Positions 214 to 32,419 are shown, counted from the stretch's first letter. The stretch is 45,140 nucleotides of DNA from an uncultured Ruminococcus sp. (GCA_902784805.1 CACZWD010000011.1:1-45140), one strand, 5' to 3'. Translations and numbers: made by a program. Notes: generated from the letters alone by a model not told the origin.

Positions 214-1119
214 ATGAATATTAATCAGCTTAAATATGTACTTGAAATTGCCGCTTCTTCATCCATGCGGGAGGCATCAACGAAATTATACATATCTCAG
301 CCGGCACTTTCTGCCAGTATTCGCGAGTTGGAAGAGGAACTCGGAATACTGATTTTTGAGAGGACAAATAAAGGAATCTCGCTTACGGATGCAGGCAGAG
401 AATTTCTTTCTTATGCAAAGAAAACCGTTGGACAATATGAAATTCTTGAGGAAAGGTATCTGAATAAAGATAATAATAAAGAACACTTTTCTGTTTCCAC
501 ACAGCACTATAATTTTGCTATTAAAGCATTTACCGAAGTGATAAAAGAAATTGATCCGGACAAATTTGTTTTTTCAATTCACGAAACAAAAACAAAAGAA
601 GTGCTTGAAGATGTCAGAACTTTAAAAAGCGAAGTGGGAATTGTTTCATTCTCCGGCTCCAATGAAGCGGTAATTAAAAAAATTTTTAGAGATTATCAGT
701 TAGACTTCACCCCGCTTATGAGAAGAGATACATATGTTTATGTCTGGGAAAATCATCCGTTTGCAGGCAAAAATGAGATTTCCATTGACGAAATGCAAAA
801 ATACCCATGCATAGCTTTTGATCAAAGCGATGACAGTAATTTTTATCTTACGGAAGAAGCTATGGCGGATTATTCATTTGATAAAATGATTAAATCTGAT
901 GATAGAGCGACAACAATGGAAATCATTGCAAGTCTTGAAGGATATTCGATAGGATCTGGAATGCTTTCCGGATCGGATGCAATACTTAAAGGGCTTGTAG
1001 CCATAAAATTAAAAGAGGAGGATCCGCTTACCATAGGATATATAACCGGAAAAGGAAATGCTATGTCGGTTTATGGAAAAGCGTACATTGATAAACTTCT
1101 TAAATATAAAGAAATCTGA
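214..1119 (+). CDS. LysR-type transcriptional regulator, likely sulfur/cysteine regulator
   Basis: A 301-residue LysR-type regulator. Residues 1-60 form the winged helix-turn-helix (MNINQLKYVLEIAASSS, then LYISQPALSASIRELEEELG). The rest is the effector-binding domain. ATG 214 is preferred over the in-frame GTG at 187 because AGAGGAAAGG at 191-200 lies upstream of it and the family usually starts at this motif. Length is normal. Its neighbours are a RidA gene and a sulfur-assimilation regulon. Three nearby promoters carry the same LysR-like dyad centred near -66 (1171, 3970 and 8268), the usual recognition position for this family. I infer it activates these promoters in response to sulfur status. 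The effector cannot be read from the sequence. Confidence 0.9.
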   Translation: MNINQLKYVLEIAASSSMREASTKLYISQPALSASIRELEEELGILIFERTNKGISLTDAGREFLSYAKKTVGQYEILEERYLNKDNNKEHFSVSTQHYNFAIKAFTEVIKEIDPDKFVFSIHETKTKEVLEDVRTLKSEVGIVSFSGSNEAVIKKIFRDYQLDFTPLMRRDTYVYVWENHPFAGKNEISIDEMQKYPCIAFDQSDDSNFYLTEEAMADYSFDKMIKSDDRATTMEIIASLEGYSIGSGMLSGSDAILKGLVAIKLKEEDPLTIGYITGKGNAMSVYGKAYIDKLLKYKEI

Positions 1120-1426: not shown

Positions 1427-1452
1427 CTTACAGTTAAGCCCCCGGTTTTTTT
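1420..1452 (+). terminator. Intrinsic terminator of the cysteine leader (attenuator)
   Basis: CCGGG-A-GCTT (1420-1429) pairs with AAGC-C-CCCGG (1436-1445) around a six-base loop, with one A-C mismatch. Seven T follow at 1446-1452. It lies 31 bases past the leader stop codon. Confidence 0.8.
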
Positions 1453-1502
1453 ATAACATAGTAAATTGCGTGCGAAAGTGCGCAATTAGCTTGTTTCAAT
1501 TG

Positions 1503-1550
1503 CCCCCAAGAATGGGGGTTAGGGGGTTGATGCGTTGGAAACGCTTTTTT
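1503..1550 (+). other. Hairpin-rich junction ahead of the cysK remnant
   Basis: Two hairpins precede the point where CysK homology begins. CCCCCA (1503-1508) pairs with TGGGGG (1513-1518). GCGTT (1532-1536) pairs with AACGC (1540-1544), followed by six T (1545-1550), which resembles a second weak terminator. The stretch has no coding content and marks the deletion or recombination point that removed the cysK 5' end. Confidence 0.4.
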
Positions 1551-1552
1551 AT

Positions 1553-1879
1553 ATTGCATTGGAGCCTGAGGATTCCCCGGTGCTTTCAGAGGGCAAAGCG
1601 GGCGCACACAAAATTCAAGGTATTGGAGCAGGGTTTGTTCCCGACGTATTAAACACCAAAATATATGATGAGGTTTTCAAAGCATCAAATCAGGACGCAT
1701 TTGAAACTTCTAAGCTGCTTGCAAAGAAAGAAGGTATCTCGGTTGGTATTTCTTCCGGCGCTGCGCTTTTTGGAGCAATAGAGCTTGCAAAACGACCGGA
1801 GAACAAAGGTAAAGTGATCGTTGCATTACTGCCGGACAGCGGAGACCGCTACTATTCAACGGCTTTATTTACAGAATAA
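1553..1879 (+). pseudogene. cysK: Truncated cysteine synthase (O-acetylserine sulfhydrylase), C-terminal third
   Basis: The translation from [20 protein letters not shown] through [12 protein letters not shown] and [21 protein letters not shown] to the stop is unmistakably the C-terminal third of CysK, including the GIGAGF region near the PLP phosphate. CysK proteins are about 300 residues. About the first 200 codons, with the PLP-binding Lys and the substrate loop, are missing. The sequence just upstream is hairpin-rich and non-coding, so this is a deletion remnant. An AGGGGG at 1521-1526 sits 8 bases before an in-frame TTG at 1535, so a short product could still be made. The remnant has no Cys and no Met. 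Its promoter, leader and attenuator survive and probably now serve the two genes downstream. Confidence 0.85.
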
Positions 1880-1967
1880 ATGACAGGCGTACTAAAATGA
1901 GGAGCTTCATAAAAGCGGAAGAAAGCTGAAATCAAATCAGACTGATATTGTGAAAGTATGTGAAATT

Positions 1968-3191
1968 ATGAGTTTTATAAATGATATATATGATTACATA
2001 AAAAGCGGAGAAACTGAAACCGAAAAATTAGGGCTTGAGATTGAACATTTTGTTGTAGACAAAAATGGCATTCAAATTGAATTTGATGAGATCTCTTCCC
2101 TCATAGACATGGTCGGAAAAGAATTGGAAGCTGAAATAATATATATGGATGGGTATCCGGTCGGATATGCAAATGAAAAATATTCAGTCAGTCTTGAACC
2201 GTCCTGCCAATTTGAAATAAGTATAAACCCTTATTCGGAATTGTCCGAAATAGAAAATGTGTACAAAGAATTTATTTCTGTTTGGAAGCCAATATTCAAT
2301 GAGAGAGGATATCAGCTCATTACTAAAGGAAACCTTCCGCTTGTAGAACTCGGTTTGATTACACCTGACGAAATCCCGTTGTCTCCCAAAAAGAGATACC
2401 TGTATATGGACGCTTATTTCAGAAAAAGCGGGAAATATGGAAAATACATGATGCGGGCATCTGCGTCCACGCAGGTTTCCGTTGATTATAGTTCGGAAGA
2501 TGATCTGATCAGAAAGCTCCAAGTGCTGCAGAAGATCTCACCTATACTTATGATAATGATGGAAAACAAAACCGACAAGGCTTCAACTCTGCCAGAAGCA
2601 CCTGATAGACCGCATTTGTTCAGAATTCAGGAATGGGATGATCTTGATCCTGACAGAACCGGTTTCTTCCCCCACTCATTTAATTCGGATTTCGGATATA
2701 AAAAAATAGCGGATGTGATATACCATACGCCTCTTATTTTGCTTGCTGATAATGATTCTACGATCAATGTGGGGCAAAAGAATGCCGAAGATCTTTTTAT
2801 GGAAAAAATTTTGCGCGAAGAAGAACTTGACGTTACAAGAAGAAAGCAGCTTACAGAGCATTTTCTTTCTATGGGTTTTTTCCATTTCAGAATTAAGAAA
2901 TATATTGAAATACGGGTTGCGGACAGTGTACCAATAAAAAAGGCACTGGGCTATGTCGCTCTTTTGAAAGGCCTTGTCTACTCAAATCGTAATCTGGATA
3001 TTCTTGCAGAAGAACTTTCGGAAATTGATGAACTTGATAAAATACAGGATACTGTTCATAAAATCGAGATCGAAGGTTCTAACGCGGTTGTATATAGGGA
3101 CATGACCGCTGCACAGTGGGCTTTGCACCTCATTGAATTAGCTGAGGGTAATCTTTCCGAAAACGAGAAGGAGTATCTGAGCCATGTGTGA
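1968..3191 (+). CDS. Glutamate-cysteine ligase, GCS2 family
   Basis: A 407-residue protein of the GCS2 carboxylate-amine ligase family (GshA/EgtA type), which joins glutamate and cysteine through a gamma-amide using ATP. The N-terminal LGLEIEHFVVD and the later SLEPSCQFEISINP and MMRASASTQVSVDYSSE stretches carry the acidic ATP/Mg and substrate residues typical of the family. Length is normal. The start is uncertain: ATG 1968 is chosen because the family begins close to it, but GTG 1950 is in frame and neither has a strong ribosome site. It follows the cysK remnant and overlaps the next gene by 8 bases, so the pair is co-translated. No glutathione synthetase or ergothioneine EgtB/EgtD gene is present, so the final product is unknown. 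Confidence 0.85.
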   Translation: MSFINDIYDYIKSGETETEKLGLEIEHFVVDKNGIQIEFDEISSLIDMVGKELEAEIIYMDGYPVGYANEKYSVSLEPSCQFEISINPYSELSEIENVYKEFISVWKPIFNERGYQLITKGNLPLVELGLITPDEIPLSPKKRYLYMDAYFRKSGKYGKYMMRASASTQVSVDYSSEDDLIRKLQVLQKISPILMIMMENKTDKASTLPEAPDRPHLFRIQEWDDLDPDRTGFFPHSFNSDFGYKKIADVIYHTPLILLADNDSTINVGQKNAEDLFMEKILREEELDVTRRKQLTEHFLSMGFFHFRIKKYIEIRVADSVPIKKALGYVALLKGLVYSNRNLDILAEELSEIDELDKIQDTVHKIEIEGSNAVVYRDMTAAQWALHLIELAEGNLSENEKEYLSHV

Positions 3192-3957
3192 ACTTTTAGG
3201 TGTAACTGCTAATACAAAAATCAAGATGAACGAGTTGTTTAAGATCTTTTTCAGCCACAGTGAGGAACATCGAAACGGCTGGGGACTTGTATTGTTGGAT
3301 GACGATGTGTTTTCTATAGATAAGGAACCGAAAAAAGCTATTGACAGTCTATATCTCAAAAGTAAATTAAAAGATAATATAGAAACCGCAAGGTGCATAG
3401 CGCACATCAGAAAGGCAACAATAGGCGAAGTGAATGTCAATAATACGCATCCTTTTTTAAAAAATGACGATTCCGGAAGAAGGTGGGTTTTGGCACATAA
3501 CGGAACAATATTTGAATCCGAAGCACTTTCGCCTTACCAGTATATTCAGGAAGGTACAACAGACAGTGAAAGGATATTGCTCTATATCGTTGATGAAATA
3601 AACAAACTATATCAGAAGAAACACGATTTGTTGAACGAGAAGGAGCGAATCGGTATAGTTGAAGAAGCTATTAAAACGATTGTACCGGGAAATAAACTAA
3701 ATCTTTTGATTTTTGACGGAGACCTGCTTTATGTACACAAAAATGAAGCAGGCACCCTCTATAAAAAAGAATTAAAGGAGGGCATGATTTTTTCTACACA
3801 GCCACTTGATGAAAACGGATGGCTTGAATTGCCGCAAAATCAGCTCTTGGTTTATAAAAGCGGAAATTTGGTGCATATAGGACAAAAACATAATAGTAGC
3901 TATATTCATAGTGAAGAAAGAATGAAGCTCCTCTATCTTGCCTATTCGGAATTGTAA
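3184..3957 (+). CDS. Class II glutamine amidotransferase-like hydrolase (EgtC/YafJ-like)
   Basis: A 257-residue N-terminal-nucleophile protein. Removal of Met1 would expose Cys2 (MCELLGVTAN), the class II amidotransferase nucleophile. The motifs EEHRNGWG, CIAHIRKATIGEV and WVLAHNGTI are those of the YafJ/EgtC group. EgtC removes a gamma-glutamyl group in ergothioneine synthesis. Here the gene overlaps a glutamate-cysteine ligase (the EgtA reaction), so a gamma-glutamyl hydrolase working on a gamma-glutamyl-Cys-derived compound is a reasonable inference. AAGGAG at about 3168 provides the ribosome site. No synthetase domain is attached, so amide transfer to an acceptor is less likely. Confidence 0.8.
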   Translation: MCELLGVTANTKIKMNELFKIFFSHSEEHRNGWGLVLLDDDVFSIDKEPKKAIDSLYLKSKLKDNIETARCIAHIRKATIGEVNVNNTHPFLKNDDSGRRWVLAHNGTIFESEALSPYQYIQEGTTDSERILLYIVDEINKLYQKKHDLLNEKERIGIVEEAIKTIVPGNKLNLLIFDGDLLYVHKNEAGTLYKKELKEGMIFSTQPLDENGWLELPQNQLLVYKSGNLVHIGQKHNSSYIHSEERMKLLYLAYSEL

Positions 3958-3969
3958 ATATGAAACGTT

Positions 3970-4036
3970 ATAACCATATTTTATAGCCATCTATAAGAGA
4001 TAAGTATTAGCCAATGAAGCATAGCCGTGATATAAT
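3970..4036 (+). promoter_or_regulatory. LysR-type operator and promoter of the thiocarboxylate operon (site C)
   Basis: The dyad ATAACCATATTTTAT occupies 3970-3984, with CC at 3987-3988 and ATAA at 3993-3996 in the same positions as at the other two promoters. A further half-site, ATAAGTATT, lies at 4000-4008 over the -35 region. The -10 box TATAAT is at 4031-4036, 61 bases from the operator start. The -35 (TAGCCA) is poor, as expected for an activator-dependent promoter. Confidence 0.65.
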
Positions 4037-4127: not shown

Positions 4128-4448
4128 ATGAAAAGTTTATATGATGATAATTTCCAAGAAACAATATCAAACGCAGCATTACCTATTATTGCAGATATTT
4201 ATTCGGACGGATGTGTAGGTTGTAAGTATATTTCTCCGATTTTAGCGGAAGCGGAAGATGCATACAGGGACAAAATCGGCTTTTTTAAGTTGAACGCCGC
4301 ATTCAATGAGAAAATTCCGGCTAAGTACAATGTGCTTTCCGTACCTACATTACTGTTCTTTAATGAGAATGGAGAGTTTTTGAAATCAGTAACCGGATTG
4401 AAGTCATACGAAGAACTGGAAGATAAGATAAAGGAGATTTTTAAATGA
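4128..4448 (+). CDS. Thioredoxin-like protein
   Basis: A 106-residue thioredoxin-fold protein. The active site is C29-V-G-C32 in SDGCVGCKYISP, and the cis-Pro motif is SVPTLLFF. The active-site dipeptide VG differs from the usual GP, so redox properties may differ. ATG 4128 is chosen because AAGAGAG lies 10 bases upstream. It is the first gene of a tightly packed operon and overlaps the next gene by four bases. In this setting it probably reduces a disulfide or persulfide in the sulfur-carrier pathway, or recycles the carrier's terminal Cys. That role is inferred from context. Confidence 0.85.
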   Translation: MKSLYDDNFQETISNAALPIIADIYSDGCVGCKYISPILAEAEDAYRDKIGFFKLNAAFNEKIPAKYNVLSVPTLLFFNENGEFLKSVTGLKSYEELEDKIKEIFK

Positions 4449-4867
4449 TAAAAATCAAGCAGACAGATTTTGAAGCAATCGTCCGATACGCCAAATCAAA
4501 TTTACCCGAAGAAGCGTGCGGACTCATAGGCGGAACTGTACATGGCGACGAAAAAACCGTTGAAAAAATATATTATCTTGAAAATACAGACCATTCCAAC
4601 GAGCATTTTTCGCTTGATGTAAAACAACAGCTTACAGCTATAAAGGATATGAGAGCAAACAATCTTTTGCCACTCGGGAATTTCCATTCGCATCCGGAAA
4701 CACCGGCAAGGCCGTCGGATGAGGATAAAAAATTTATTCTGGATAAAAATGCAAGCTATATGATTTTATCGTTAGAGTACGGGCCAACACTCAAAGCCTT
4801 TGTAATTTCCGATGAAGGAATAACAGAGGAGCAAGTTTTAATAATCGGAAAGGATGAAATACAATGA
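4445..4867 (+). CDS. JAMM/MPN+ metalloprotease of the sulfur-carrier system (HcyD/QbsD/Mec+ type)
   Basis: A 140-residue JAB/MPN zinc peptidase. The full catalytic set is visible: Glu22/23 in LPEEACGLIGG, and H81-S-H83-P followed by S91 and D94 (H-x-H-x7-S-x2-D). Bacterial enzymes of this type trim extra residues from the C-terminus of ubiquitin-like sulfur carriers (QbsD, HcyD) or release cysteine from a carrier adduct (Mec+). The next gene encodes such a carrier ending in GGGC, so its natural substrate is very likely that protein's C-terminus. It overlaps both neighbours by four bases. Confidence 0.88.
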   Translation: MIKIKQTDFEAIVRYAKSNLPEEACGLIGGTVHGDEKTVEKIYYLENTDHSNEHFSLDVKQQLTAIKDMRANNLLPLGNFHSHPETPARPSDEDKKFILDKNASYMILSLEYGPTLKAFVISDEGITEEQVLIIGKDEIQ

Positions 4868-5070
4868 ATTTAAATATCAGCGGAACGCAAAAAAAATACG
4901 AGGACGGAATAACTCTTGCTTATCTTATTGAAAAGGAAAAAATACAAACACCGCAATATGTTACGGCATCGGTCAATGACGAGCTTATCAGTGCGTCTGA
5001 ATTTGAAAATGTAACACTTAAAGACGGAGATAACATCGAATTTCTGTATTTTATGGGAGGTGGCTGCTGA
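4864..5070 (+). CDS. Ubiquitin-like sulfur carrier (ThiS/MoaD/HcyS type) ending in GGGC
   Basis: A 68-residue beta-grasp protein (VTASVNDELISASEF, then LKDGDNIEFLYFMGGGC). It has the ThiS/MoaD length and the di-glycine tail, but one extra Cys follows the glycines. QbsE and HcyS proteins likewise carry residues beyond GG that a JAMM protease must remove before the Gly carboxylate is adenylated and converted to a thiocarboxylate. The JAMM gene upstream and the MoeB/ThiF gene downstream overlap this gene. It presumably donates sulfur to O-acetylhomoserine through MetY. Thiamine or molybdopterin roles are less likely because no such genes are nearby. Confidence 0.88.
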   Translation: MNLNISGTQKKYEDGITLAYLIEKEKIQTPQYVTASVNDELISASEFENVTLKDGDNIEFLYFMGGGC

Positions 5071-5876
5071 TGGCACTTTCAGGAGAGCAGATAGAAAGAT
5101 ATTCAAGACATCTGATCCTTAAAGATGTCGGTGTCAAAGGTCAAAAAAAATTACTTGAAAGCAAGGTTTTGATTATTGGAGCAGGGGGACTCGGCGCACC
5201 TGCCGCACTGTATCTTGCCGCTGCCGGAGTCGGAACGATAGGTATTGCCGACGCGGATGAGGTCGACCTTTCAAATTTACAAAGACAGATCATACATTCT
5301 ACGCCCAATATAGGAAAATCCAAGGTACAGTCTGCCAAAGAGCGTATAAACGAGCTCAATCCCGATGTTACGGTAAATACATACAGGACTTTTATCAAAG
5401 CCGATAATATTTTGGATATTATATCCGATTATGATTTTATTATTGACGGAACAGATAATTTTCCTGCCAAGTTTTTGATAAATGATGCGTGTGTAATCGG
5501 TAAAAAACCTTTTTCTCATGCAGGGATAATTCGCTTTCAAGGTCAGCTTATGACATATGTTCCGGGTAAAGGACCTTGTTATCGCTGTATATTCAAAGAA
5601 CTGCCGCCAAAGGACGCAATCCCCACCTGCAAGCAGGCAGGAGTTATAGGTGCTATGGGCGGAGTTATAGGCAGTCTTCAGGCTATGGAGGCAATAAAGT
5701 ATATTATCGGAACAGGTGAGCTTCTTACAGGTTATTTGCTTACATACGACGCGCTAAAAATGGAATTCAGAAAAATAAAATTACCGTCAGCGGTAAAAGA
5801 TTGCCATGTTTGCGGCGAAAACCCGACGATACTTACACCGTTTGACTATGAACAAACACAATGCGAAGGAATATAA
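5070..5876 (+). CDS. MoeB/ThiF/HcyF-type adenylyltransferase for the sulfur carrier
   Basis: A 268-residue E1-like activating enzyme. It has the nucleotide loop IIGAGGLGAPAALYLA, the DADEVDLSNLQRQI segment, and two zinc CxxC pairs (CYRC and CHVC). It adenylates the C-terminal Gly of the carrier encoded just upstream; the genes overlap by one base. It has no rhodanese domain of its own, but a separate rhodanese-TusA-DsrE protein ends the operon and could supply persulfide. MoeB, ThiF and HcyF cannot be told apart from sequence alone. The neighbouring MetY favours the HcyF role. Confidence 0.9.
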   Translation: MALSGEQIERYSRHLILKDVGVKGQKKLLESKVLIIGAGGLGAPAALYLAAAGVGTIGIADADEVDLSNLQRQIIHSTPNIGKSKVQSAKERINELNPDVTVNTYRTFIKADNILDIISDYDFIIDGTDNFPAKFLINDACVIGKKPFSHAGIIRFQGQLMTYVPGKGPCYRCIFKELPPKDAIPTCKQAGVIGAMGGVIGSLQAMEAIKYIIGTGELLTGYLLTYDALKMEFRKIKLPSAVKDCHVCGENPTILTPFDYEQTQCEGI

Positions 5877-5929
5877 AGAACCAAACATTCCATTACGGAT
5901 GATTTGCGGTTATTGAGGGAATGAAAGAA

Positions 5930-7189
5930 ATGAATTTGAACACTCAGCTTCTACATGGAAATTTCAAATGTGAAGACAAAACAGGAGCAACGCTTGCTCC
6001 AATATATCAGTCAAGTGCATTCGGCAAATCAAGTGCGGAGGAAATTGAAAAGATATTTAATAATGAGTTGCCGGGGTTTGCATATTCAAGGATATCAAAT
6101 CCGACTACATTTGCATTTGAACAGCGTATCACTTATATTGAAAACGGAATCTCATCTACAGCCACATCATCCGGTATGTCGGCAATCAGTATGACATTCC
6201 TGAATATTGTCAGAAGCGGAGATGAGATTATTTCTACAACATCGATTTTTGGCGGTACTCTTGACTTATGGAGTAATTTAAAAAAATTAAGAATAACCGT
6301 AAAATTTGTTGATGAAATAACCGAAGAAAGTTTATCAAAGGCTGTATCTTCAAAAACAAAAGCGGTCTTTGCCGAAACAATAGGTAATCCCAAATTAAAT
6401 GTTACCGATATAAAAAAAGCGGCAGATGCGGCACATAAGCTTAATTTACCGTTTATCTTGGATAATACCGCCGCAACACCGTATCTTGTTACAGGGATTC
6501 CTTTGGGCGCCGATATTGTTATCAATTCAACATCAAAATATATTAACGGTCACAGCAGTTCAATAGGCGGCATAATAACAGACGGTGGAAAATTTGATTG
6601 GAATAACGGAAATTACCCGTCTCTTGATAAATATAAAAAATACGGTAAGTTAGCCTTTAGTGCAGCCTTAAAAAATGATACTTTGAGAAATTACGGTGCC
6701 TGTATAAGCCCTCAGAATTCTTTTTTAAACTCAATAGGCTTGGAAACACTCGGACTCAGAATGGAAAGACATTGTGAAAATGCACTTAGGCTCGCACAAT
6801 GCATGGAGAATAAACCGGGAATACATTCTGTTAATTATCCTCTGCTCGATACAAATCCTTGGCATGACATAGCCAAAAAACAATTCGGGGGCAAAGGCGG
6901 AGGTATTTTCACGATGAGATTATACACAAAGCACCGTGCATTCGAATTTATTGACAGGCTTAAATACGCAATTATTATAACAAATATCGGCGATACAAAA
7001 ACTCTTGTAGTTCATCCTTCGTCTACAATATATGCGCACAGCGATAACAGGACAAAAGAAAAAGCCGGAGTTTACGACGATATGATACGGATAAGCGTCG
7101 GTATTGAGGATATAGATGATTTAATTTCGGATTTTACGGATGCTCTTGAATATGTAAATACAAAATACGGAAATGAGGTATCAGAATGA
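5930..7189 (+). CDS. metY: O-acetylhomoserine sulfhydrylase, thiocarboxylate-operon copy
   Basis: A 419-residue Cys/Met-metabolism PLP enzyme. The PLP-lysine region is INSTSKYINGHSSSIGG, with the SRISNPTTFAFEQRI and VVHPSS motifs of the family. It converts O-acetylhomoserine plus a sulfur donor to homocysteine. ATG 5930 is preferred to ATG 5921 because GAGGG at 5915-5919 is 10 bases from the former and too close to the latter. It lies between the carrier-activating enzyme and the sulfur-relay fusion, the same partners as the Wolinella HcyS system, so the donor is probably the carrier thiocarboxylate. Unlike the MetY at 12470, it has an ordinary number of Cys and Met. Confidence 0.9.
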   Translation: MNLNTQLLHGNFKCEDKTGATLAPIYQSSAFGKSSAEEIEKIFNNELPGFAYSRISNPTTFAFEQRITYIENGISSTATSSGMSAISMTFLNIVRSGDEIISTTSIFGGTLDLWSNLKKLRITVKFVDEITEESLSKAVSSKTKAVFAETIGNPKLNVTDIKKAADAAHKLNLPFILDNTAATPYLVTGIPLGADIVINSTSKYINGHSSSIGGIITDGGKFDWNNGNYPSLDKYKKYGKLAFSAALKNDTLRNYGACISPQNSFLNSIGLETLGLRMERHCENALRLAQCMENKPGIHSVNYPLLDTNPWHDIAKKQFGGKGGGIFTMRLYTKHRAFEFIDRLKYAIIITNIGDTKTLVVHPSSTIYAHSDNRTKEKAGVYDDMIRISVGIEDIDDLISDFTDALEYVNTKYGNEVSE

Positions 7190-8265
7190 GCAAACTTAAA
7201 AAATATGCAGATAATCAAAGAAAGATAAAGCCTTCAGATATTGATAAATTGGATTTTGAAAATATCACATTGTTGGATCTGAGGGAGCAAGACGAATATA
7301 TTGTTTCAACATTGCCGGGTGCAGTCAATATTCCGATGAGTGACATAGGTGCAACGATAAACAATTTCCCAAAAGACAAGCAAATACTTGTATTCTGCCG
7401 TGAGGGAGACTGGAGCGAAGAGGTTTTGGAGCTACTTTTGGATGTGGGATACGATGCGTATGAATTGGAGGGTGGCTTTAACGCATACAGAAATAAACCA
7501 AAGACCTCTGACACCCGTGAAGAAAAGATAGAAGAAAACAATAATTATTTTCTTGATGTGAGAGGACTCAAATGTCCCGGACCTATTGTGAAAACAGGAG
7601 ATAAGATCCGAAGTGTTGAAAGCAATGCCGTTTTGACTATCGTAGCCGATGAGGCAGCATTTTATTCCGATATTCGCGTTTGGTGCGACAGAACCGGGAA
7701 TATACTTCAGGAGCTTTCAAAAAATGGTGAAGAAATAACAGCTGTAATAAAAAAGAGCAACACTCCTCCTGCCATGAATACATCGTCTGATTCCGGAAAT
7801 GACAAAACAATGGTTGTTTTCAGCGGTGATCTCGATAAAACGATAGCTGCATTTATTATTGCCAACGGAGCTTTGGCAATGGGAAGAAAAGTTACAATAT
7901 TCTTTACCTTTTGGGGACTTAATGTTTTGAGGAAAAGCAAAAAGGTCAAGACTCAAAAAAGCCTTATAGAGAAAATGTTTGGTTTTATGATGCCGAGAGG
8001 AACAAAAAAGCTTGGCTTATCAAGGATGAACATGGGTGGTGCAGGTGCAAAAATGATTCGTGCCGTAATGAAATCAAAAGGTGTAGATTCGCTTGAAGAA
8101 TTGATTGAACAGGCTATAAAGCACGGTGCCCGTATTGTCGCTTGCCAAATGTCAATGGATATTATGGGAATAAAAAAAGAAGAGCTAATTGACGGAGTAG
8201 AGCTTGGAGGTGCCGCAACCTTTTTAGGTTCCGGAGAAAATTCTGACATGAGCCTTTTTATATAG
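7186..8265 (+). CDS. Rhodanese-TusA-DsrE2 sulfur-relay fusion protein
   Basis: A 359-residue protein with three sulfur-transfer modules in one chain. Residues 1-107 are a rhodanese domain with catalytic Cys71 in FCREGDWSEE. Residues 120-190 are a TusA/SirA domain with Cys130 in LKCPGPIVK. Residues 207-359 are a DsrE2-like domain (TIFFTFWGLNVLRK and a late ACQMSMDIMGI with a conserved Cys). Such modules pass persulfide sulfur from Cys to Cys. As the last gene of the operon, overlapping MetY by four bases, it probably delivers sulfur to the adenylated carrier. The fusion would channel persulfide without release. Confidence 0.9.
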   Translation: MSKLKKYADNQRKIKPSDIDKLDFENITLLDLREQDEYIVSTLPGAVNIPMSDIGATINNFPKDKQILVFCREGDWSEEVLELLLDVGYDAYELEGGFNAYRNKPKTSDTREEKIEENNNYFLDVRGLKCPGPIVKTGDKIRSVESNAVLTIVADEAAFYSDIRVWCDRTGNILQELSKNGEEITAVIKKSNTPPAMNTSSDSGNDKTMVVFSGDLDKTIAAFIIANGALAMGRKVTIFFTFWGLNVLRKSKKVKTQKSLIEKMFGFMMPRGTKKLGLSRMNMGGAGAKMIRAVMKSKGVDSLEELIEQAIKHGARIVACQMSMDIMGIKKEELIDGVELGGAATFLGSGENSDMSLFI

Positions 8266-8267
8266 CT

Positions 8268-8334
8268 ATAACAAATACTTATAACCAAAGATAAATAACA
8301 TGTAATTTTCAGATATATTTTTATATGCTATAAT
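8268..8334 (+). promoter_or_regulatory. LysR-type operator and promoter ahead of the second leader ORF (site B)
   Basis: ATAACAAATACTTAT at 8268-8282, then CC at 8285-8286 and ATAA at 8291-8294. The promoter is TTTTCA (8306-8311), a 17-base spacer, and TATAAT (8329-8334). The operator starts three bases after the previous gene's stop and 61 bases before the -10 box, matching sites A and C. Confidence 0.7.
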
Positions 8335-8392: not shown

Positions 8393-8464
8393 ATGACACA
8401 GTTATATAAACGATGTCGAATGCGAATGTGTAAATTAACAGTAAATCGTAATAAAAAAATTTAA
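8393..8464 (+). CDS. Cys-containing 23-residue leader peptide before the secreted sulfur-free protein
   Basis: A short ORF with GAGGGTGG (8380-8387) ahead of ATG 8393. The peptide begins MTQLYKRCRMRMCKL, with Cys at codons 8 and 13 among Arg and Met, and stops 18 bases before the next gene. The C-R-M coding segment TGTCGAATGC is identical, in the same frame, to the leader ORF at 1269. A small hairpin (CCTAT 8345-8349 with ATAGG 8357-8361) lies upstream. No terminator is evident between the leader and the next start, so control, if real, could be translational. It is basic and lacks a RiPP context. Confidence 0.6.
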   Translation: MTQLYKRCRMRMCKLTVNRNKKI

Positions 8465-8482: not shown

Positions 8483-9673
8483 ATGAAAAAATTTATCAAT
8501 ATATTATCTGTAATAACAATATTCGCATTATTATTAAACATTACACCCGTATTTGCCGCTTCCAACGCAAAAACATATACAGTAACGCTGCAAACGGACA
8601 GCAGAGTCAAATACAGCGGCGCAAAAGCTTCATTCACTATAAAAAGTACTGCCTATAAGAGTGTATATGCAAAATTAACAGCATCGGCAGAAAAGGATTA
8701 TTATATAGAGGGTATAAATGAATATCCCGAAAATTCAGCCGATATAAAGTATAATCAAAAGACCGGAGAAGTTTTTATAGAAAATGTGAAGAATGATTTT
8801 ACGATCATTCCGCAGGTAAAAATCAAATCCGTACCGTCAAGTCTTGATGTTTCATATGATTTTATTGAAGGCGGTATATACAGTGAATCAAACCCTGCCG
8901 CAACAATTGTGTTTACGGCAAATGTAAGTAATTCTGACGGCAATCCGGTACCGAATACCGAAGTATATTTCAAGCCGTATTCAAATGAAAGTTATACAAA
9001 AACTCTGAAAACCGACTTGTCCGGAACGGCAACAGCAAAGTATTCATATGCTCTTGAAAAAGGCAAAAATGCAGACTTTGAAGCAAAATTTGCTTTAGAC
9101 AAATCGTTTTCGCAAACAGTAAATAACATTTCATTCAATGTTATTCTTCAAAAGAAATCTGATCTGGAGCTTTATACAAATCAGGTGTTTGCATCGCCTG
9201 CAAATGAGAAAAAGGGTAAAGTTACAGGCATTAATCCCGACTATGAATATTTCACGGGTGTACTGCATCAAGGGGCGATAAATACAGCATCTGGCGAATG
9301 GTTAACGCCGAAAAAAGGAGAGATTGACGGCTTGGCTCCCGGACAGTATGCGTTAAGATTCAAAGAACGCCAGGAGGGTAATACAATATATTTACATTCG
9401 GATTATGATTATTTTACGATAGACAGAGCTATCTGGACAGTTACTTTAAACGCAAGTGGTGAAGTCGCTGCCGACAATGCCAAACTTTACGCCGGTCCGG
9501 GCGGAGATGTGTATTATTATATAAGCGTTGCCGACGGATATGCTGTTTCGGATTATTCGGTGAATAAACCTAATTATATTCGCAGTATTGAATATAATGC
9601 AGACGGCGGCTATATTCATATCAGCGGTATAACCGGCAGTATAATATTGAATATTACATCAGAGGAATTGTAA
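8483..9673 (+). CDS. Secreted protein of unknown function with an Ig-like segment, free of Cys and internal Met
   Basis: A 396-residue protein with a signal peptide (MKKFINILSVITIFALLLN, cleavage probably after PVFAA) and no later membrane segment. Residues about 120-225 resemble a bacterial Ig-like (Big_1) fold (VFTANVSNSDGNPVPNTEV). The rest is beta-rich and rich in Tyr, Asn and Ser. Apart from the start codon it has no Met and no Cys at all, including the signal peptide. By comparison the 404-residue GSI in this window has 13. The gene is driven by a sulfur-regulon promoter and a Cys leader ORF. I infer an extracellular or cell-surface protein made during sulfur starvation. Its ligand or activity is not recognisable. 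The ribosome site is GAGAGG at about 8467-8472. Confidence 0.8.
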   Translation: MKKFINILSVITIFALLLNITPVFAASNAKTYTVTLQTDSRVKYSGAKASFTIKSTAYKSVYAKLTASAEKDYYIEGINEYPENSADIKYNQKTGEVFIENVKNDFTIIPQVKIKSVPSSLDVSYDFIEGGIYSESNPAATIVFTANVSNSDGNPVPNTEVYFKPYSNESYTKTLKTDLSGTATAKYSYALEKGKNADFEAKFALDKSFSQTVNNISFNVILQKKSDLELYTNQVFASPANEKKGKVTGINPDYEYFTGVLHQGAINTASGEWLTPKKGEIDGLAPGQYALRFKERQEGNTIYLHSDYDYFTIDRAIWTVTLNASGEVAADNAKLYAGPGGDVYYYISVADGYAVSDYSVNKPNYIRSIEYNADGGYIHISGITGSIILNITSEEL

Positions 9674-9680
9674 AAATTTC

Positions 9681-9720
9681 AATATACCCAAAATGCCGAC
9701 AAGGTGTTTTGGGTATATTT
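9681..9720 (+). terminator. Terminator-like hairpin between the two secreted-protein genes
   Basis: AATATACCCAAAA (9681-9693) pairs perfectly with TTTTGGGTATATT (9707-9719). The T-tract is weak (TTTATAA), so partial read-through to the next gene is possible. Confidence 0.6.
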
Positions 9721-9751
9721 ATAAACTAAATAATGATTTGGAGGAAATAAC

Positions 9752-12145
9752 ATGAAAAAAAATAATATAATAGAAGCATTCCTGTTTGCTGTTTTTCTGA
9801 TAACCGTTTCGGGACTGACTGCCTTTGCGGCCACATATACAACAGATTTACCGGAAGATATAATATGGTACACATCATCTTCCGGCAGCAATACAACAGA
9901 CACTGTAGCCCTTTCTACAAGCTCAACAAAATCACTTTACCCGCAGGCTCCTGACGGAAAATATATAGACAGGGTATATTTTACATATAACGACGGTGAA
10001 ACACCGGATGCGGATGCAACAGTTACATATGACGGTGCAAGGAAAAGATATACCGTTAAATTTCCTAAAGTAAGCGGAGAAGTAAAAGAAATAACGGTTG
10101 TCTTACAGGATACTGAAAATGTCTATCTGCGATATACGGGTGTTCAAGATATAGGCACAAATGAAAGTTCATCATACAGAGGTTATAAAATCAATGTATA
10201 TGCCACACTTGAAACAATCGACGGTTCTCCGGTAACGGATGTTGCAGTAGGTGCAATAATAGCAGGCAGAACCCGTACAGCTTCGTCTGACGAATCAGGA
10301 AACATTACACTGACATCAAATTCCACAATTACCGAGAATTCAAGTGTTTCCGTTTATTCCGCTGCAAAGGAGTATAATATTGCAGACAACACTCTGAATA
10401 TTATTGCACCTTCAAAGCTTTCGGGCGAAATATTCGTTGTGACAGATTTTATTGAAGATAACACGTCAGATAGCAGCGAAAGCGATGCATACGGCAGCAT
10501 AACAATAAACGACACTTCAAAATCATATGTTTATTCGGTTAAAGACCCAAACCAAAGTCCGTATAATGCCGAGATAATAAATGTTGAAAATAATGTGATT
10601 ACAGATCTTACTGACGGTAGATACTATATACGCTCAAAGCCGTATTACGATAATGCCGCAACAACCTATTATCTTGCGTCAGAAGCAACCAGCGTAGATG
10701 TAAATAAAAGCACATATGAAACCGTAACCGTTAATTTTACCGCAGGAAAAAATGTTACATACAGCTTGGAAAAAGACGGTGAGAGCATATCATCACTTTC
10801 TTTTACCGCTGTAAAATCACAATCGTCTGCAATGGACGGGAGTGTTGATGTTTACTATGCTGTTGATGAAGGGTATATTCTTGATGGATTTAAGGTAAAC
10901 TCCGCTTCGGGTACAGCCAGCGTAGCGTTTAATGACGGAACACTTACAATTTCCGCACCGACAACAAAGTCATTTTATATTGCGGCAAATACAAGGCAGG
11001 CAGGTGCCACGACACAAATAGGAGCTTTAAATTTAAGCTCTCACGAGGACAGCAAAAGCGGAAACAGTACGCTGATCATTTCCGGCACATTATTATCATA
11101 CGGCAGTGGTATAAGTGGTAAAACGGTTACACTCTACAATGGTCCTTCAGCATTGCTTAATGCAGCTACCGATGAAAGCGGAGGCTTTAAATTTGAAATT
11201 TCAAACCCTGTTGCCGGCGATTATGCTTTTTCGGCAGGCTTTAAGGGCGATGATGATTATGATAAATCAACATCCGATACTCTTAATGTGACGGTAGTAA
11301 AGCCTGAAACTCCGCAAATTATAAATGTTATTGGTACATCAGGTAACGGTGCGGCAGACGGAAGCTTTGAAATTGTAAGCGGATTACCCGACAGTGCCGA
11401 ATTTGAGTATAATAAGACAAGGAATCCCGACGCCGAATACAATGGAACTTCCTTGCTTGATTTACAGAAAGTATCAGGAAAAAGCGCCGATAGTTTAAGC
11501 ACCGGTAAATATTATGTGAGAAATGCAGTGTTCATAAATGGTAATACATTTTACTTGCCCTCTTCTTCTACTGAAATTTCGATTGCACCCGCTCCTTATA
11601 CGGTAACACTGACCGGAAGCGGTGCTGAATGGAAGGATGAAAGCGGAAATCCAATTAACCAAGCAACTGTTCGTGTGGGAGAAACAAAAACCGTAAGACT
11701 TGCAACAAATTATGATACATACGACATTCTGCCTCTTGAATATGATAATGAAAATGCCGAAATAACATATGACGCAAGCACGGGAACAGTTACATTGTCA
11801 GACTTAAAAAAATCCATCTCTGTTAATGCTGTCGCTGTCAAAAAGACTTTAAATTATGTTACGGTAAAAACAAATGAAAACATAACCGTAAATGATAATA
11901 TTGTAAATGGTAATGTCTGGGCTTCAATTTACGGAAGAAATTCAGATCCCATCAATGCCGTAGCAATATTGGCGGCATATAGTAATATCAGATTGGAATT
12001 TTCAATAATTAATAATATAATCCTTCAAGGTTCAAAAACCGATGTTGTCTTTGACATTGCTAACGAAAGTGTAAACACATCCGATATTGAGTATAAAATA
12101 TTTGTTTGGGATAGCTTAAACACCATTCAACCGTTAACTGAATGA
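9752..12145 (+). CDS. Large secreted beta-repeat protein, no Cys and one internal Met
   Basis: A 797-residue protein with a signal peptide (IIEAFLFAVFLITVSGLTAFA) and no C-terminal anchor or sorting motif. It is built of repeated beta-domains. Carboxypeptidase-regulatory or Ig-like segments are visible around residues 130-210 and 430-510 (LLSYGSGISGKTVTLYNG, ATDESGGFKF). It is extremely rich in Ser, Thr, Asn and Asp. It contains no Cys and only one Met besides the start. It follows the 396-residue secreted protein and shares its sulfur-free composition, but a hairpin separates them and I see no promoter of its own. The ribosome site is GGAGG at about 9740. The function is unknown; a surface-associated or matrix protein is a guess from composition. 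Confidence 0.78.
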   Translation: MKKNNIIEAFLFAVFLITVSGLTAFAATYTTDLPEDIIWYTSSSGSNTTDTVALSTSSTKSLYPQAPDGKYIDRVYFTYNDGETPDADATVTYDGARKRYTVKFPKVSGEVKEITVVLQDTENVYLRYTGVQDIGTNESSSYRGYKINVYATLETIDGSPVTDVAVGAIIAGRTRTASSDESGNITLTSNSTITENSSVSVYSAAKEYNIADNTLNIIAPSKLSGEIFVVTDFIEDNTSDSSESDAYGSITINDTSKSYVYSVKDPNQSPYNAEIINVENNVITDLTDGRYYIRSKPYYDNAATTYYLASEATSVDVNKSTYETVTVNFTAGKNVTYSLEKDGESISSLSFTAVKSQSSAMDGSVDVYYAVDEGYILDGFKVNSASGTASVAFNDGTLTISAPTTKSFYIAANTRQAGATTQIGALNLSSHEDSKSGNSTLIISGTLLSYGSGISGKTVTLYNGPSALLNAATDESGGFKFEISNPVAGDYAFSAGFKGDDDYDKSTSDTLNVTVVKPETPQIINVIGTSGNGAADGSFEIVSGLPDSAEFEYNKTRNPDAEYNGTSLLDLQKVSGKSADSLSTGKYYVRNAVFINGNTFYLPSSSTEISIAPAPYTVTLTGSGAEWKDESGNPINQATVRVGETKTVRLATNYDTYDILPLEYDNENAEITYDASTGTVTLSDLKKSISVNAVAVKKTLNYVTVKTNENITVNDNIVNGNVWASIYGRNSDPINAVAILAAYSNIRLEFSIINNIILQGSKTDVVFDIANESVNTSDIEYKIFVWDSLNTIQPLTE

Positions 12146-12469: not shown

Positions 12470-13840
12470 TTATTTTACTGCTGCAAAAGCATCATCCAGT
12501 GCTTCTATCAAATCCTGAACATTTTCAGTACCAATAGAAAGTCTTATGGTGTTTGGCTTAATGCCCTGATCCAGAAGTTCATCAGGCTCAAGCTGTGAGT
12601 GTGTCGTTGATGCGGGGTGAATAACAAGCGATTTAACATCGGCAACATTTGCAAGAAGTGAGAATATAGCAAGGTTATCAATGAATTTCTTTGCTGTTTC
12701 TTCATCACCTTTAATTTCAAATGTGAATATCGAACCGCCGCCATTGGGAAAGTATTTTTTATAAACCTCATGACTCGGTTCACTTGCAAGGGACGGATGA
12801 TGAACAGCCTCAACCTGGGGATGCTTGTTTAAGTAGTCAACAATTTTCAATGCGTTTTCTACATGGCGCTCAACTCGTAGAGAAAGTGTTTCAAGTCCCT
12901 GCAGGAAGATGAACGAGTGGAACGGTGACTGCGTTGCACCTGTGTCACGAAGAAGTATTGCACGGATATATGTAGCAAATGCAGCCGGTCCTACCGCGTC
13001 AGAAAAACTGATGCCGTGATATGACGGGTTTGCTTCCGAAATCCACGGATACTTGCCCGAAGCCTTCCAATCAAAAGTGCCTCCGTCTATGATAACGCCG
13101 CCGATTGCAGTACCGTGACCGCCAATGAACTTTGTAGCACTGTGAACAACTATATCTGCGCCGTACTCAATAGGTCTTACGAGGTACGGCGTTGCGAATG
13201 TGGAATCGATTACAAGCGGAATATTGTGCTTATGTGCCACATTTGCTACCTTTTCAATGTCAATTACATTTGAATTCGGATTACCGAGTGTTTCAATAAA
13301 AATGGCCTTTGTTTTATCATTTATTGCGGCTTCAAACGAGCCTTCTTCATCCGGATCAACGAATGTTGTTGTTACATTGTTATTAAGCGGAAGCGTATGC
13401 GCTAAAAGGTTATATGTTCCGCCGTATATTGTCTTTGATGCGACAATGTTTTCGCCCGACTTTGCAAGTGCCTGTATTGTATAAGAAATAGATGCCGCGC
13501 CGGATGCAACGCCAAGAGCTGCAACACCGCCTTCCAAAGCTGCGATTCTTTGCTCAAATATATCCTGAGTAGGATTCGTGAGCCTTGAATAAATGTTTCC
13601 TGCATCTCTCAAACCAAAACGGTCTGCAGCGTGCTGTGAATTATGAAATACATAGGATGTACTCGCATAAATCGGAACGGCGCGTGCGTCAGTTGCCGGA
13701 TCGGCCTGTTCCTGTCCCACATGTAATTGTAATGTTTCAAATCTATATTTTTTGTTTGCCACTTTATTTTCCCCCAATTCTGATTTTTGATTTTTATTTT
13801 TTGGATTAATAATCTTATTTAATATATTTGATAAACTCAT
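12470..13840 (-). CDS. metY: O-acetylhomoserine sulfhydrylase, sulfur-free copy
   Basis: A 456-residue PLP enzyme of the MetY group. The PLP-lysine segment is VVHSATKFIGGHGTAIGG, with IYSRLTNPTQDIFEQRI and VIHPASTTHSQL. It is about 30 residues longer at the N-terminus (MSLSNILNKIINPKNKNQ) than usual. The start is supported by GAGGTG at 13848-13853, seven bases upstream. The whole protein contains no Cys and no Met except the start, including positions where relatives have Met (here SGAASISYTIQ, compared with SSGMSAISM in the copy at 5930). A 24-codon Cys leader ORF and a good promoter precede it. I infer an enzyme for making homocysteine from free sulfide when sulfur is scarce. Confidence 0.92.
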   Translation of the reverse strand: MSLSNILNKIINPKNKNQKSELGENKVANKKYRFETLQLHVGQEQADPATDARAVPIYASTSYVFHNSQHAADRFGLRDAGNIYSRLTNPTQDIFEQRIAALEGGVAALGVASGAASISYTIQALAKSGENIVASKTIYGGTYNLLAHTLPLNNNVTTTFVDPDEEGSFEAAINDKTKAIFIETLGNPNSNVIDIEKVANVAHKHNIPLVIDSTFATPYLVRPIEYGADIVVHSATKFIGGHGTAIGGVIIDGGTFDWKASGKYPWISEANPSYHGISFSDAVGPAAFATYIRAILLRDTGATQSPFHSFIFLQGLETLSLRVERHVENALKIVDYLNKHPQVEAVHHPSLASEPSHEVYKKYFPNGGGSIFTFEIKGDEETAKKFIDNLAIFSLLANVADVKSLVIHPASTTHSQLEPDELLDQGIKPNTIRLSIGTENVQDLIEALDDAFAAVK

Positions 13841-13871: not shown

Positions 13872-13946
13872 CTAAATACACATTCGGTAAGTGTTGCACA
13901 TGATACATCGAAGCAATTTAGTTATAATGAAGTTAACTTGCTTCAT
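13872..13946 (-). CDS. Cys-containing 24-residue leader peptide upstream of metY
   Basis: A minus-strand ORF with an exceptionally strong ribosome site (AAAAGGAGGT at 13957-13966, 10 bases from ATG 13946). It starts about 50 bases after a promoter -10 box and ends 31 bases before the metY start. The peptide begins MKQVNFIITKLLRC and has three Cys, in L-R-C-I-M-C-N and Y-R-M-C-I. The R/C/M-rich pattern resembles the leaders at 1269 and 8393. No clear terminator lies between it and metY. Short stems are possible (ACAC with GTGT inside the ORF). The expected role is Cys-dependent control of metY by ribosome stalling. Confidence 0.65.
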   Translation of the reverse strand: MKQVNFIITKLLRCIMCNTYRMCI

Positions 13947-14413: not shown

Positions 14414-15628
14414 ATGTATAGTAAAAATGATGTTTCAAACTATATTAAATCAGAGGACGTAAAGTTTATAAAGCTTGCTTTTTGCGACATATTCGGTGTG
14501 CAAAAAAATATATCTGTTATTGCAGACGAATTAGATAGAGCGTTTGAGCACGGCATTTCCTTTGACGCGTCGGCAATACGCGGCTTCGGTGATGAAGCAA
14601 AGTCGGATTTATTTCTTTTCCCCGACCCGTCAACCATTGAAGTTTTGCCATGGCGTCCGTCACAAGGAAAGGTTGTAAGAATGATATGCGATATTAAAAA
14701 ACCTGACGGAACACCGTTTGAAACGGATACCCGTTATATTTTAAAAAATGCCGTTAGTTGCGCAAAAGAAAACGGAATAGAATTAAATATAGGCGCGGAA
14801 TTTGAATTTTATCTCTTTAAAACAGATGATGAAGGCGAGCCGACAGATGTTCCTTTTGATAATGCGGGCTATTTTGATATTGCGCCTTTTGACCGCGGGG
14901 AAAACGTCCGCCGTGAAATTTGCCTTACCCTGGAGGATATGGAGATATACCCCGAAAGCTCACATCATGAAGAAGGTCCGGGACAAAACGAAATTGATTT
15001 TAAATATTCCGCTCCTCTTTCAAGCGCCGATAACGCGGTTACTTTTAAATCCGTCACCCAGGCAATAGCGGCAAAAAACGGGCTTTACGCAAGCTTTATG
15101 CCAAAGCCTGTTAAAAATTCAAGCGGAAACGGAATGCATATAAACATTTCACTTAACGACAAATCGAAAACCGACAGCTTCATAGCCGGTATTCTTGAAA
15201 ACATAAGCGGAATTACCGTTTTTTTAAATCCGCTGCCCGAATCATACGAGAGACTGGGAAGTAAAAAAGCGCCGCTATATATAACATGGGCGGAGGGTAA
15301 CCGTTCACAGCTTATACGTATTCCTGCCGAAACAAGCGAAAGAAGCCGCTTTGAAGTGCGTTCTCCCGACCCTATGGCAAATCCGTATCTTGCGTATGCG
15401 CTTCTGATATACGCAGGTGTTGACGGCGTTATAAACAATAAAAAGCTTTGCAAGCCGTGCAATATCAATTTATACAATGCCGGTAAAAGTGTTACCGAAA
15501 AGCTTTCCGTCTTGCCGAAAAATTTTGACGAGGCGATAAAGTGTGCGGAAAACAGCATAATTGTAAAAAAATATTTACCTGAAAACATAATTGATATATT
15601 AAAAAAATATAACAGTAAACCGGAGTGA
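14414..15628 (+). CDS. glnA: Glutamine synthetase type I
   Basis: A 404-residue GSI-type enzyme: ATP-dependent amidation of glutamate. Family motifs are present: ADE..FDASAIRGF near the N-terminus, GAEFEFYLF, SHHEEGPGQNEIDF (metal ligands), GNGMHINISL (ATP/metal), NRSQLIRIPA, and RFEVRSPDPMANPYLAYA. It is shorter than the common 440-470 residue GSI, mainly at the C-terminus (ending around ENIIDILKKYNSKPE). The adenylylation-site Tyr region of GSI-beta is not evident, so it resembles the GSI-alpha group. It is the first gene of its transcription unit, followed closely by an ANTAR protein, with a type III GS further on. Having two GS classes side by side suggests distinct regulation. Confidence 0.9.
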   Translation: MYSKNDVSNYIKSEDVKFIKLAFCDIFGVQKNISVIADELDRAFEHGISFDASAIRGFGDEAKSDLFLFPDPSTIEVLPWRPSQGKVVRMICDIKKPDGTPFETDTRYILKNAVSCAKENGIELNIGAEFEFYLFKTDDEGEPTDVPFDNAGYFDIAPFDRGENVRREICLTLEDMEIYPESSHHEEGPGQNEIDFKYSAPLSSADNAVTFKSVTQAIAAKNGLYASFMPKPVKNSSGNGMHINISLNDKSKTDSFIAGILENISGITVFLNPLPESYERLGSKKAPLYITWAEGNRSQLIRIPAETSERSRFEVRSPDPMANPYLAYALLIYAGVDGVINNKKLCKPCNINLYNAGKSVTEKLSVLPKNFDEAIKCAENSIIVKKYLPENIIDILKKYNSKPE

Positions 15629-31461: not shown

Positions 31462-31560
31462 GGGCGCATAGCTCAGCTGGGAGAGCATCTGCCTTACAAG
31501 CAGAGGGTCATAGGTTCGACAAGCAGAGGGTCATAGGTTCGAGCCCTATTGTGCCCACCA
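31462..31560 (+). tRNA. tRNA-Val (anticodon TAC) carrying a 23-base internal tandem duplication
   Basis: The acceptor arms GGGCGCA and TGTGCCC, discriminator A and encoded CCA, the D-arm, and the loop CTTACAA (anticodon TAC at 31495-31497) identify tRNA-Val. The segment from the anticodon loop to the T-loop (31496-31518) is repeated exactly at 31519-31541, making the gene 99 instead of 76 bases. With one copy removed it folds as a normal tRNA. As written it would carry an extra anticodon 3' strand, variable region and half T-arm, and is probably non-functional. Confidence 0.8.
31496..31541 (+). repeat. Perfect 2 x 23-base tandem duplication inside tRNA-Val
   Basis: The copies at 31496-31518 and 31519-31541 are identical, beginning ACAAGCAGAG and ending TAGGTTCG. 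It could be a recent slippage duplication or an assembly error. Confidence 0.9.
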
Positions 31561-31594
31561 CACCCTTTCTATTAAGTAAGCACATGCATAAAAT

Positions 31595-31671
31595 GGCCTG
31601 GTAGTTCAGTTGGTTAGAACGCTAGCCTGTCACGCTAGAGGTCGTGGGTTCGACCCCCATCCAGGTCGCCA
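31595..31671 (+). tRNA. tRNA-Asp (GTC)
   Basis: A complete 77-base cloverleaf: acceptor GGCCTGG/CCAGGTC, discriminator G, anticodon loop CTGTCAC, T-loop TTCGACC, encoded CCA. Confidence 0.95.
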
Positions 31672-31681
31672 TTATTTTTAT

Positions 31682-31757
31682 GCCTCTGTAGCTCAGTCGG
31701 TAGAGCAGGGGACTGAAAATCCCCGTGTCGGTGGTTCGATTCCGCCCGGAGGCACCA
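31682..31757 (+). tRNA. tRNA-Phe (GAA)
   Basis: A complete 76-base cloverleaf: acceptor GCCTCTG/CGGAGGC, anticodon loop with GAA (CTGAAAA), encoded CCA. Confidence 0.95.
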
Positions 31758-31772
31758 AAAAATAATATCTAT

Positions 31773-31847
31773 GCGGGAGTGGCTCAGTGGTAGAGCGTCA
31801 CCTTGCCAAGGTGAACGTCGCGAGTTCGAATCTCGTCTTCCGCTCCA
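31773..31847 (+). tRNA. tRNA-Gly (GCC)
   Basis: A complete 75-base cloverleaf: acceptor GCGGGAG/CTTCCGC, anticodon loop TTGCCAA, encoded CCA. Confidence 0.95.
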
Positions 31848-31851
31848 CTTG

Positions 31852-31887
31852 ACAAAAGACGCATAGATTTGCGTCTTTTGTTTCTTT
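31852..31887 (+). terminator. Terminator/processing hairpin after tRNA-Gly
   Basis: ACAAAAGACGCA (31852-31863) pairs perfectly with TGCGTCTTTTGT (31870-31881), followed by TTCTTT. Confidence 0.75.
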
Positions 31888-31901
31888 AAAAAGTATCTTT
31901 T

Positions 31902-31975
31902 GGCGCCATGGCCAAGTGGTAAGGCAGAGCTCTGCAAAAGCTTCACCCCCAGTTCAAATCTGGGTGGCGCCTCCA
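31902..31975 (+). tRNA. tRNA-Cys (GCA)
   Basis: A complete 74-base cloverleaf: acceptor GGCGCCA/TGGCGCC, discriminator T, anticodon GCA in CTGCAAA, encoded CCA. It is the tRNA whose charging the leader peptides would sense. Confidence 0.95.
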
Positions 31976-31980
31976 AATTA

Positions 31981-32022
31981 AAAAAAGTGCTGTACGCAGC
32001 AATATATGTACAGCACTTTTTT
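31981..32022 (+). terminator. Bidirectional terminator after tRNA-Cys
   Basis: AAAAAAGTGCTGTAC (31981-31995) pairs perfectly with GTACAGCACTTTTTT (32008-32022), giving T-runs on both strands. Confidence 0.85.
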
Positions 32023-32044
32023 AAAAACAAACAAATAAATATAC

Positions 32045-32120
32045 AGGGGTATAGCTCAGTTGGTAGAGCAGCGGTCTCCAAAACCGCGTGCCGTGAGTTC
32101 AAGTCTTACTACCCCTGCCA
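32045..32120 (+). tRNA. tRNA-Trp (CCA)
   Basis: A complete 76-base cloverleaf: acceptor AGGGGTA/TACCCCT, discriminator G, anticodon CCA in CTCCAAA, encoded CCA. Its last 44 bases recur at 36910-36953. Confidence 0.95.
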
Positions 32121-32335: not shown

Positions 32336-32343
32336 AATCATGT

Positions 32344-32419
32344 GGGGGTGTAGCTCAGCTGGGAGAGCGCGTGCTTCGCATGTACGAGGTCAGGGGTTCG
32401 ATCCCCCTCATCTCCACCA
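32344..32419 (+). tRNA. tRNA-Ala (CGC)
   Basis: A complete 76-base cloverleaf: acceptor GGGGGTG/CATCTCC with the G3-U70 pair that marks alanine, anticodon CGC in TTCGCAT, discriminator A, encoded CCA. Confidence 0.92.

Follow-up and report, generated by a model that had tools for sequence, protein, structure and literature searches.

The DNA analysed here (the window, 45,140 nucleotides from an uncultured gut bacterium, Ruminococcus sp., GCA_902784805.1, CACZWD010000011.1:1-45140) encodes two large secreted proteins that are almost devoid of sulfur amino acids. Secreted protein 1 (8483-9673, + strand; 396 aa) has no Met after its start and no Cys, and secreted protein 2 (9752-12145, + strand; 797 aa) has one further Met and no Cys. 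Both are full-length open frames, each beginning with a sequence that resembles a signal peptide. A sequence-only reading of the window had placed both open reading frames (ORFs) and counted their Met and Cys correctly; it took the depletion to be selected because exported protein is lost sulfur. Judging from sequence, we think it probable that the pair belongs to a sulfur regulon and has been purged of Cys and Met for large-scale production and export when sulfur amino acids are scarce. The trait that the sulfur-free genes have in common is an upstream leader ORF with an in-frame CGA-AUG, mostly with Cys codons as well.

How unusual is this composition? The host genome is a 1.67-Mb metagenome-assembled genome (MAG) of 66 contigs, 84% complete, in which a simple codon model called 1,476 genes and a crude predictor picked out 107 secreted-like proteins. 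Mean contents are 2.31% Met and 1.46% Cys over the genome and 1.93% and 1.13% in the secreted-like set, within which the 396-aa and 797-aa proteins rank lowest and second lowest in Met plus Cys. Hence, it is not the case that most secreted proteins are equally low. Expected Met plus Cys was obtained by Poisson regression on the other amino acids, the counts not being overdispersed. Conditioned in this way, the 797-aa protein should have 15.4 such residues and has 1 (P = 3.4e-6), the 396-aa protein should have 11.7 and has 0 (P = 8e-6), and the pair jointly shows 1 against 27.1 (P = 5e-11). With composition controlled, no other protein among the 1,185 of at least 150 aa is as depleted as these two and the sulfhydrylase MetY, and all three lie within 5.4 kb. 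The contrast that had been drawn with GSI (14414-15628) also holds, since GSI has 7 Cys and 5 further Met after its start.

A single orthologous locus was found among 84,980 species genomes scanned, on contig JAIKVQ010000165.1 of MAG RUI406 (locus L206). From the LysR-type gene through the secreted pair, the window is collinear with it, the DNA being 93-96% identical, but RUI406 lacks the cysK remnant and the GshA-like and EgtC-like genes. The 396-aa orthologue (L206:8733-9923) is 93% identical and has 0 Met and 0 Cys; the 797-aa orthologue (L206:10001-12394) is 87% identical and has 2 Met and 0 Cys. The depletion is thus kept in the one pair that could be compared. Signal peptides had been said to avoid Met, which is true of both proteins here, but the orthologous 797-aa signal peptide carries one. 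The ratios of nonsynonymous to synonymous substitution rates (dN/dS) against RUI406 are 0.18 and 0.30, indicating that both secreted genes are maintained.

Could export alone have driven the depletion? It is ruled out by the cytosolic O-acetylhomoserine sulfhydrylase MetY (12470-13840, - strand; 456 aa; TIGR01326 at 610 bits against a cut-off of 495), which has no Met after its start and no Cys. Equally sulfur-free are a second MetY on another contig (C52:5861-7150, - strand; 0 Met after the start, 0 Cys), whose frame is broken, and a C-terminal cysK remnant (1535-1879, + strand; 114 aa, 0 Met, 0 Cys), named by sequence inspection and absent from L206. Since the cytosolic MetY shares the trait, export is not the common factor, and the loss of exported sulfur is not the whole reason for it. 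Among MetY orthologues (about 430 aa), Met plus Cys is at most 4 in 27 of 29 and at most 2 in 23 of 29. Methionine synthase seems to be another sulfur-sparing enzyme in some genomes: the 448-aa product of a MetE-like gene at L228:1-1346, beside an orthologue of the regulator, contains one Met and one Cys.

The leaders were found by screening 573 upstream regions for short, Cys/Met-rich ORFs led by a Shine-Dalgarno (SD) sequence, blind to the genes behind them. There were four matches, three of which precede the cysK remnant, MetY and the secreted pair. Leader 1, MVRFETNKQNHTMCCRMLISRAYNLAGAFGCSCTRLIKK (1269-1388, + strand), has an SD and ATG, 4 Cys and 2 further Met, and is conserved at L206:4073. 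Leader 2, MTQLYKRCRMRMCKLTVNRNKKI (8393-8464, + strand), likewise with an SD and ATG, contains two in-frame CGA-ATG and stops 18 nt before the 396-aa ORF; its RUI406 counterpart is MTHLYKRCQMRMCKLTVNRNKKI. Leader 3, MKQVNFIITKLLRCIMCNTYRMCI (13872-13946, - strand), lies upstream of MetY behind the SD GGAGG and has 3 Cys, 2 further Met and an in-frame CGA-ATG-TGT. An in-frame CGA-ATG (Arg-Met) is common to all three. Leaders with this feature occur in 4 of the 573 regions, and each of the four precedes a product with no Met beyond the start and no Cys. The fourth belongs to the second MetY (leader MIKMFFKLLRQNFRNGRM; CGA-ATG leader at C52:7216-7245, - strand) and was not used in defining the feature.

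In about 20 of 30 loci, MetY follows a leader of the same kind, in which the Arg codon is always CGA, and CGAATGTG is present in 16 of 30 MetY upstream regions where 0.11 would be expected. A looser pattern, GGAGG..ATG..CGAATGTG, was dropped, its matches falling mostly within long genes or in the wrong frame. The best-conserved form, LRxN(F/W/Y)RxGRM, was matched 35 times in 391 genomes, with varied synonymous codons, against 0 for the reversed control. Among genomes with MetY mapped, nearly all of these matches are directly upstream of it; in other genomes, the codon after the motif is UGY (Cys) or UGA (stop). At L261, such a leader precedes a MetQ-type lipoprotein with no Met and only its lipobox Cys, and at L260, a related leader precedes a sulfate-binding-type lipoprotein with no Met and 1 Cys, both named from their sequences by inspection. 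The leaders matched no model in Rfam or NCBIfam, and the motif strings tried did not occur in the literature searched. We propose, tentatively, that leader peptides with CGA-AUG and then UGY or UGA form a previously undescribed family, possibly of arrest peptides, that marks genes purged of Cys and Met, whether cytosolic (MetY) or exported (MetQ, the sulfate-binding protein and the two surface-type proteins). Leader and composition may have co-evolved across the class as one sulfur-starvation translation programme.

Placement of the pair in a sulfur regulon draws on shared promoters. The gene at 214-1119 (+ strand) encodes a LysR-type protein, with Pfam HTH_1 and LysR_substrate above cut-off, that is probably a sulfur/methionine regulator; it reached no NCBIfam equivalog cut-off (CysB, CmbR and others), the best being 96.7 bits against 415. 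Its orthologues adjoin cysK, sulfur-free metY (L209, L212, L217), metE, metF/metH, GshA/EgtC-like and metQ-like genes. Only three promoters in the whole assembly, each of them in the window, have an ATAA-N7-TTAT box (TAAC...CC consensus) whose start stands exactly 61 bp ahead of TATAAT. The first combines the LysR-type box ATAACCAATACTTAT with TTTACA-17-TATAAT (1171-1237, + strand; conserved at L206:3977) and serves the cysK remnant and the GshA/EgtC-like genes. The second box and -10, again 61 bp apart (3970-4036, + strand), serve a sulfur-carrier operon of thioredoxin, JAMM, ThiS, MoeB/ThiF, MetY2 and rhodanese-TusA-DsrE2 genes (4128-8265, + strand; assigned with Pfam and NCBIfam), which is not sulfur-depleted. 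The third, with TTTTCA-17-TATAAT (8268-8334, + strand; conserved at L206:8519), serves the secreted pair. At L208, an orthologue of the regulator (76% identical) stands beside cysK, and the box there is also 61 bp before the -10. Near the -35 of the second promoter, within 3970-4008, AATACTTAT occurs once more, on the opposite strand. Shared sites, their spacing and the neighbouring genes suggest that the regulator binds these boxes and answers to sulfur. The earlier attribution of the pair to a sulfur-regulon promoter therefore holds by inference, through a box and exact spacing common to two sulfur-gene promoters and through the sulfur genes beside regulator orthologues.

How might the leaders act? 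Leader 1 overlaps a candidate transcription attenuator (1325-1452, + strand). The fold of 1405-1455 predicts a terminator (1419-1452), a hairpin of -16.3 kcal/mol followed by U7; the fold of 1320-1432 (-41.0) predicts an alternative in which 1325-1334 competes by pairing with 1417-1426. Both are conserved in L206. Translation of the leader would disrupt the competing pairing, as in classical attenuation. The cysK gene behind it in the window lacks its N-terminal part; in RUI406, leader 1 and the terminator directly precede the thioredoxin operon (region 1452-4005). At MetY loci, 17-73 nt separate the end of the leader from the gene, and for some of them a stalling model is convincing: at L176, a modelled ribosome stall at Met-Cys raises the openness of the MetY SD from 0.05 to 0.96.

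Perhaps translatability rather than economy is what matters. Products free of Cys and Met codons would escape stalling when Cys-tRNA and Met-tRNA run low, and stalling of the leaders at those same codons would switch them on. Such an account fits the observation that exported and cytosolic products are alike sulfur-free, all behind leaders with Met or Cys codons, and it draws on the loci, such as L176, where a modelled stall at the Arg-Met-Cys codons frees the MetY SD. However, initiator Met-tRNA would still be required, several leaders end in Arg-Met-UGA without Cys codons, and the stalling models fail for leader 2 and several others. The account also overlaps with sulfur economy, and sequence cannot tell the two apart. 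We consider it rather unlikely to be the explanation in place of economy, but not far-fetched.

Less plausible still, and in our view improbable, is that composition alone is at work: Ser/Thr/Asn/Gly-rich exported proteins of beta-sandwich or S-layer-like type would be naturally poor in Met and free of Cys, with no selection on sulfur. S-layer proteins are known for their low sulfur content, both secreted proteins are rich in Ser, Thr and Asn, and other surface-type proteins of this genome are low too (3 Met and 1 Cys in 768 aa at C8:152; 8 Met and 0 Cys in 699 aa at C15:8509). Yet the expectation conditioned on composition is still 15.4 and 11.7 where 1 and 0 are observed, and Met/(Met+Ile+Leu+Val+Phe) is much lower in the pair than in the genome's other secreted proteins (P = 2e-5 and 9e-4). 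The sulfur-free cytosolic MetY and the match with leader ORFs are also left unexplained. That the depletion arose by chance, or through faulty gene calling or assembly, is scarcely credible: the window does come from an 84%-complete MAG in which the truncated cysK and the frame-broken second MetY show errors or decay, but the frames of the pair are full length, the joint P is minute, and orthologues under constraint in the independent MAG RUI406 refute this in practice.

The proteins themselves gave few clues to their function. The best Pfam matches are immunoglobulin (Ig)-like and below the gathering threshold, Big_1 for the 396-aa protein (26.1 against 34.9) and Big_3_5 for the 797-aa protein (32.3 against 35.5). 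Neither protein has an SLH or other wall-anchoring domain in Pfam up to E = 1, and PDB sequence searches gave no useful match. AlphaFold models built from two-row alignments had mean predicted local distance difference test (pLDDT) scores of 37 and 32 and were unusable. A surface or matrix role as multi-domain beta-sandwich proteins is the likeliest guess that the weak Ig-like matches allow.

Several results weigh against the view that the pair was purged of Cys and Met as part of a sulfur regulon. Met or Cys is involved in 1 of 128 replacements between the orthologous pairs (7.3 expected by mutation alone), and the neighbouring control genes show 1 of 69 (3.6 expected; Fisher P = 1). Since pair and controls behave alike in this test against a single orthologue, we do not claim direct selection against Met and Cys as distinct from ordinary purifying selection; what stands of the suggestion that the depletion looks selected is that it is extreme, survives composition control and is kept in RUI406. 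A homologue of the 396-aa protein was absent from 98 other genomes searched, congeners included, and one of the 797-aa protein from 59 others, bar weak C-terminal matches, which leaves two MAGs as the basis of the case. Because three of the four matches to the CGA-ATG criterion had a part in shaping it, its weight comes from the fourth match and from other genomes. The depletion does not reach MoeB, MetY2 and the TusA fusion, enzymes of the sulfur operon whose Met and Cys contents are ordinary. Finally, folding of the upstream region revealed no terminator for leader 2, and a modelled stall at its Cys or Met codons makes the downstream SD no more open (0.34 stalled against 0.35 free). Elsewhere in the window, a Gut-1 small RNA (RF01706) lies at 32150-32220, inside a tRNA cluster (31462-32416).

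Under the sulfur-regulon explanation, which we continue to favour, low cysteine or methionine would activate the LysR-type regulator, which would act at the ATAA-N7-TTAT boxes to turn on the three promoters, as their shared sites and spacing suggest. The CGA-AUG/Cys-codon leaders may sense Cys and Met supply or stall the ribosome and so tune expression, leader 1 through its predicted terminator and antiterminator. The ThiS/JAMM/MoeB/MetY2/TusA operon, judged by homology from its gene content, would make cysteine and homocysteine. The near sulfur-free composition of MetY, CysK and the secreted pair would spare sulfur during production and keep the products translatable. As surface or matrix proteins, the pair might take over surface functions in sulfur starvation; the weak Ig-like matches make this a guess.

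Parts of this picture have precedents. Sulfate-binding protein is exported, under sulfur control and almost without Cys and Met. The secreted pair is likewise exported with near-zero Cys and Met, and similar cases stand behind related leaders (L260, L261), but in the pair neither a binding-protein domain nor a partner transporter can be recognised. Low Cys and Met contents are known from sulfur-assimilation enzymes and from proteins of sulfur starvation, an example being the Cys-free MetY of Rhodococcus qingshengii (PMC8557817). The genes described here resemble these in being sulfur-related with very few Cys and Met, down to the same enzyme, MetY; they differ in including two large exported proteins with weak Ig-like matches and in that the trait is tied to a specific leader ORF. 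Cysteine leader attenuators have been described for cys operons and cbs in Actinobacteria (PMC1262725), polycysteine short ORFs of mycobacteria appear in work cited in PMC9094748, and uORFC-8-2 lies upstream of cysS (PMC8632094). Our leaders are alike in being short, SD-led ORFs with Cys codons before sulfur genes, and for leader 1 a terminator with a competing pairing is predicted. In contrast, they carry a recurring CGA-AUG followed by UGU/UGC or UGA, a conserved LRxN(F/W/Y)RxG in the MetY group, and sulfur-free main genes. Compared with CmbR, MtaR and HomR of Streptococcaceae (PMC3616900) and with CysB, the regulator shares the LysR-type domains, a T-N11-A type box upstream of the -35 and neighbours in Cys and Met metabolism, whereas it reaches no equivalog cut-off and its putative targets include secreted proteins.

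Sulfur sparing, including a Cys-free MetY, and leaders with Cys codons are thus already known. What look new are two large secreted proteins as sulfur-sparing members and the gene-by-gene match of one leader type with sulfur-free products. The locus is a clear case from nature of agreement, gene by gene, between element cost, gene regulation and protein composition. It would add large secreted proteins to the enzymes and transporters that spare sulfur, and the leader motif may make it possible to predict sulfur-free, starvation-induced genes from DNA alone.

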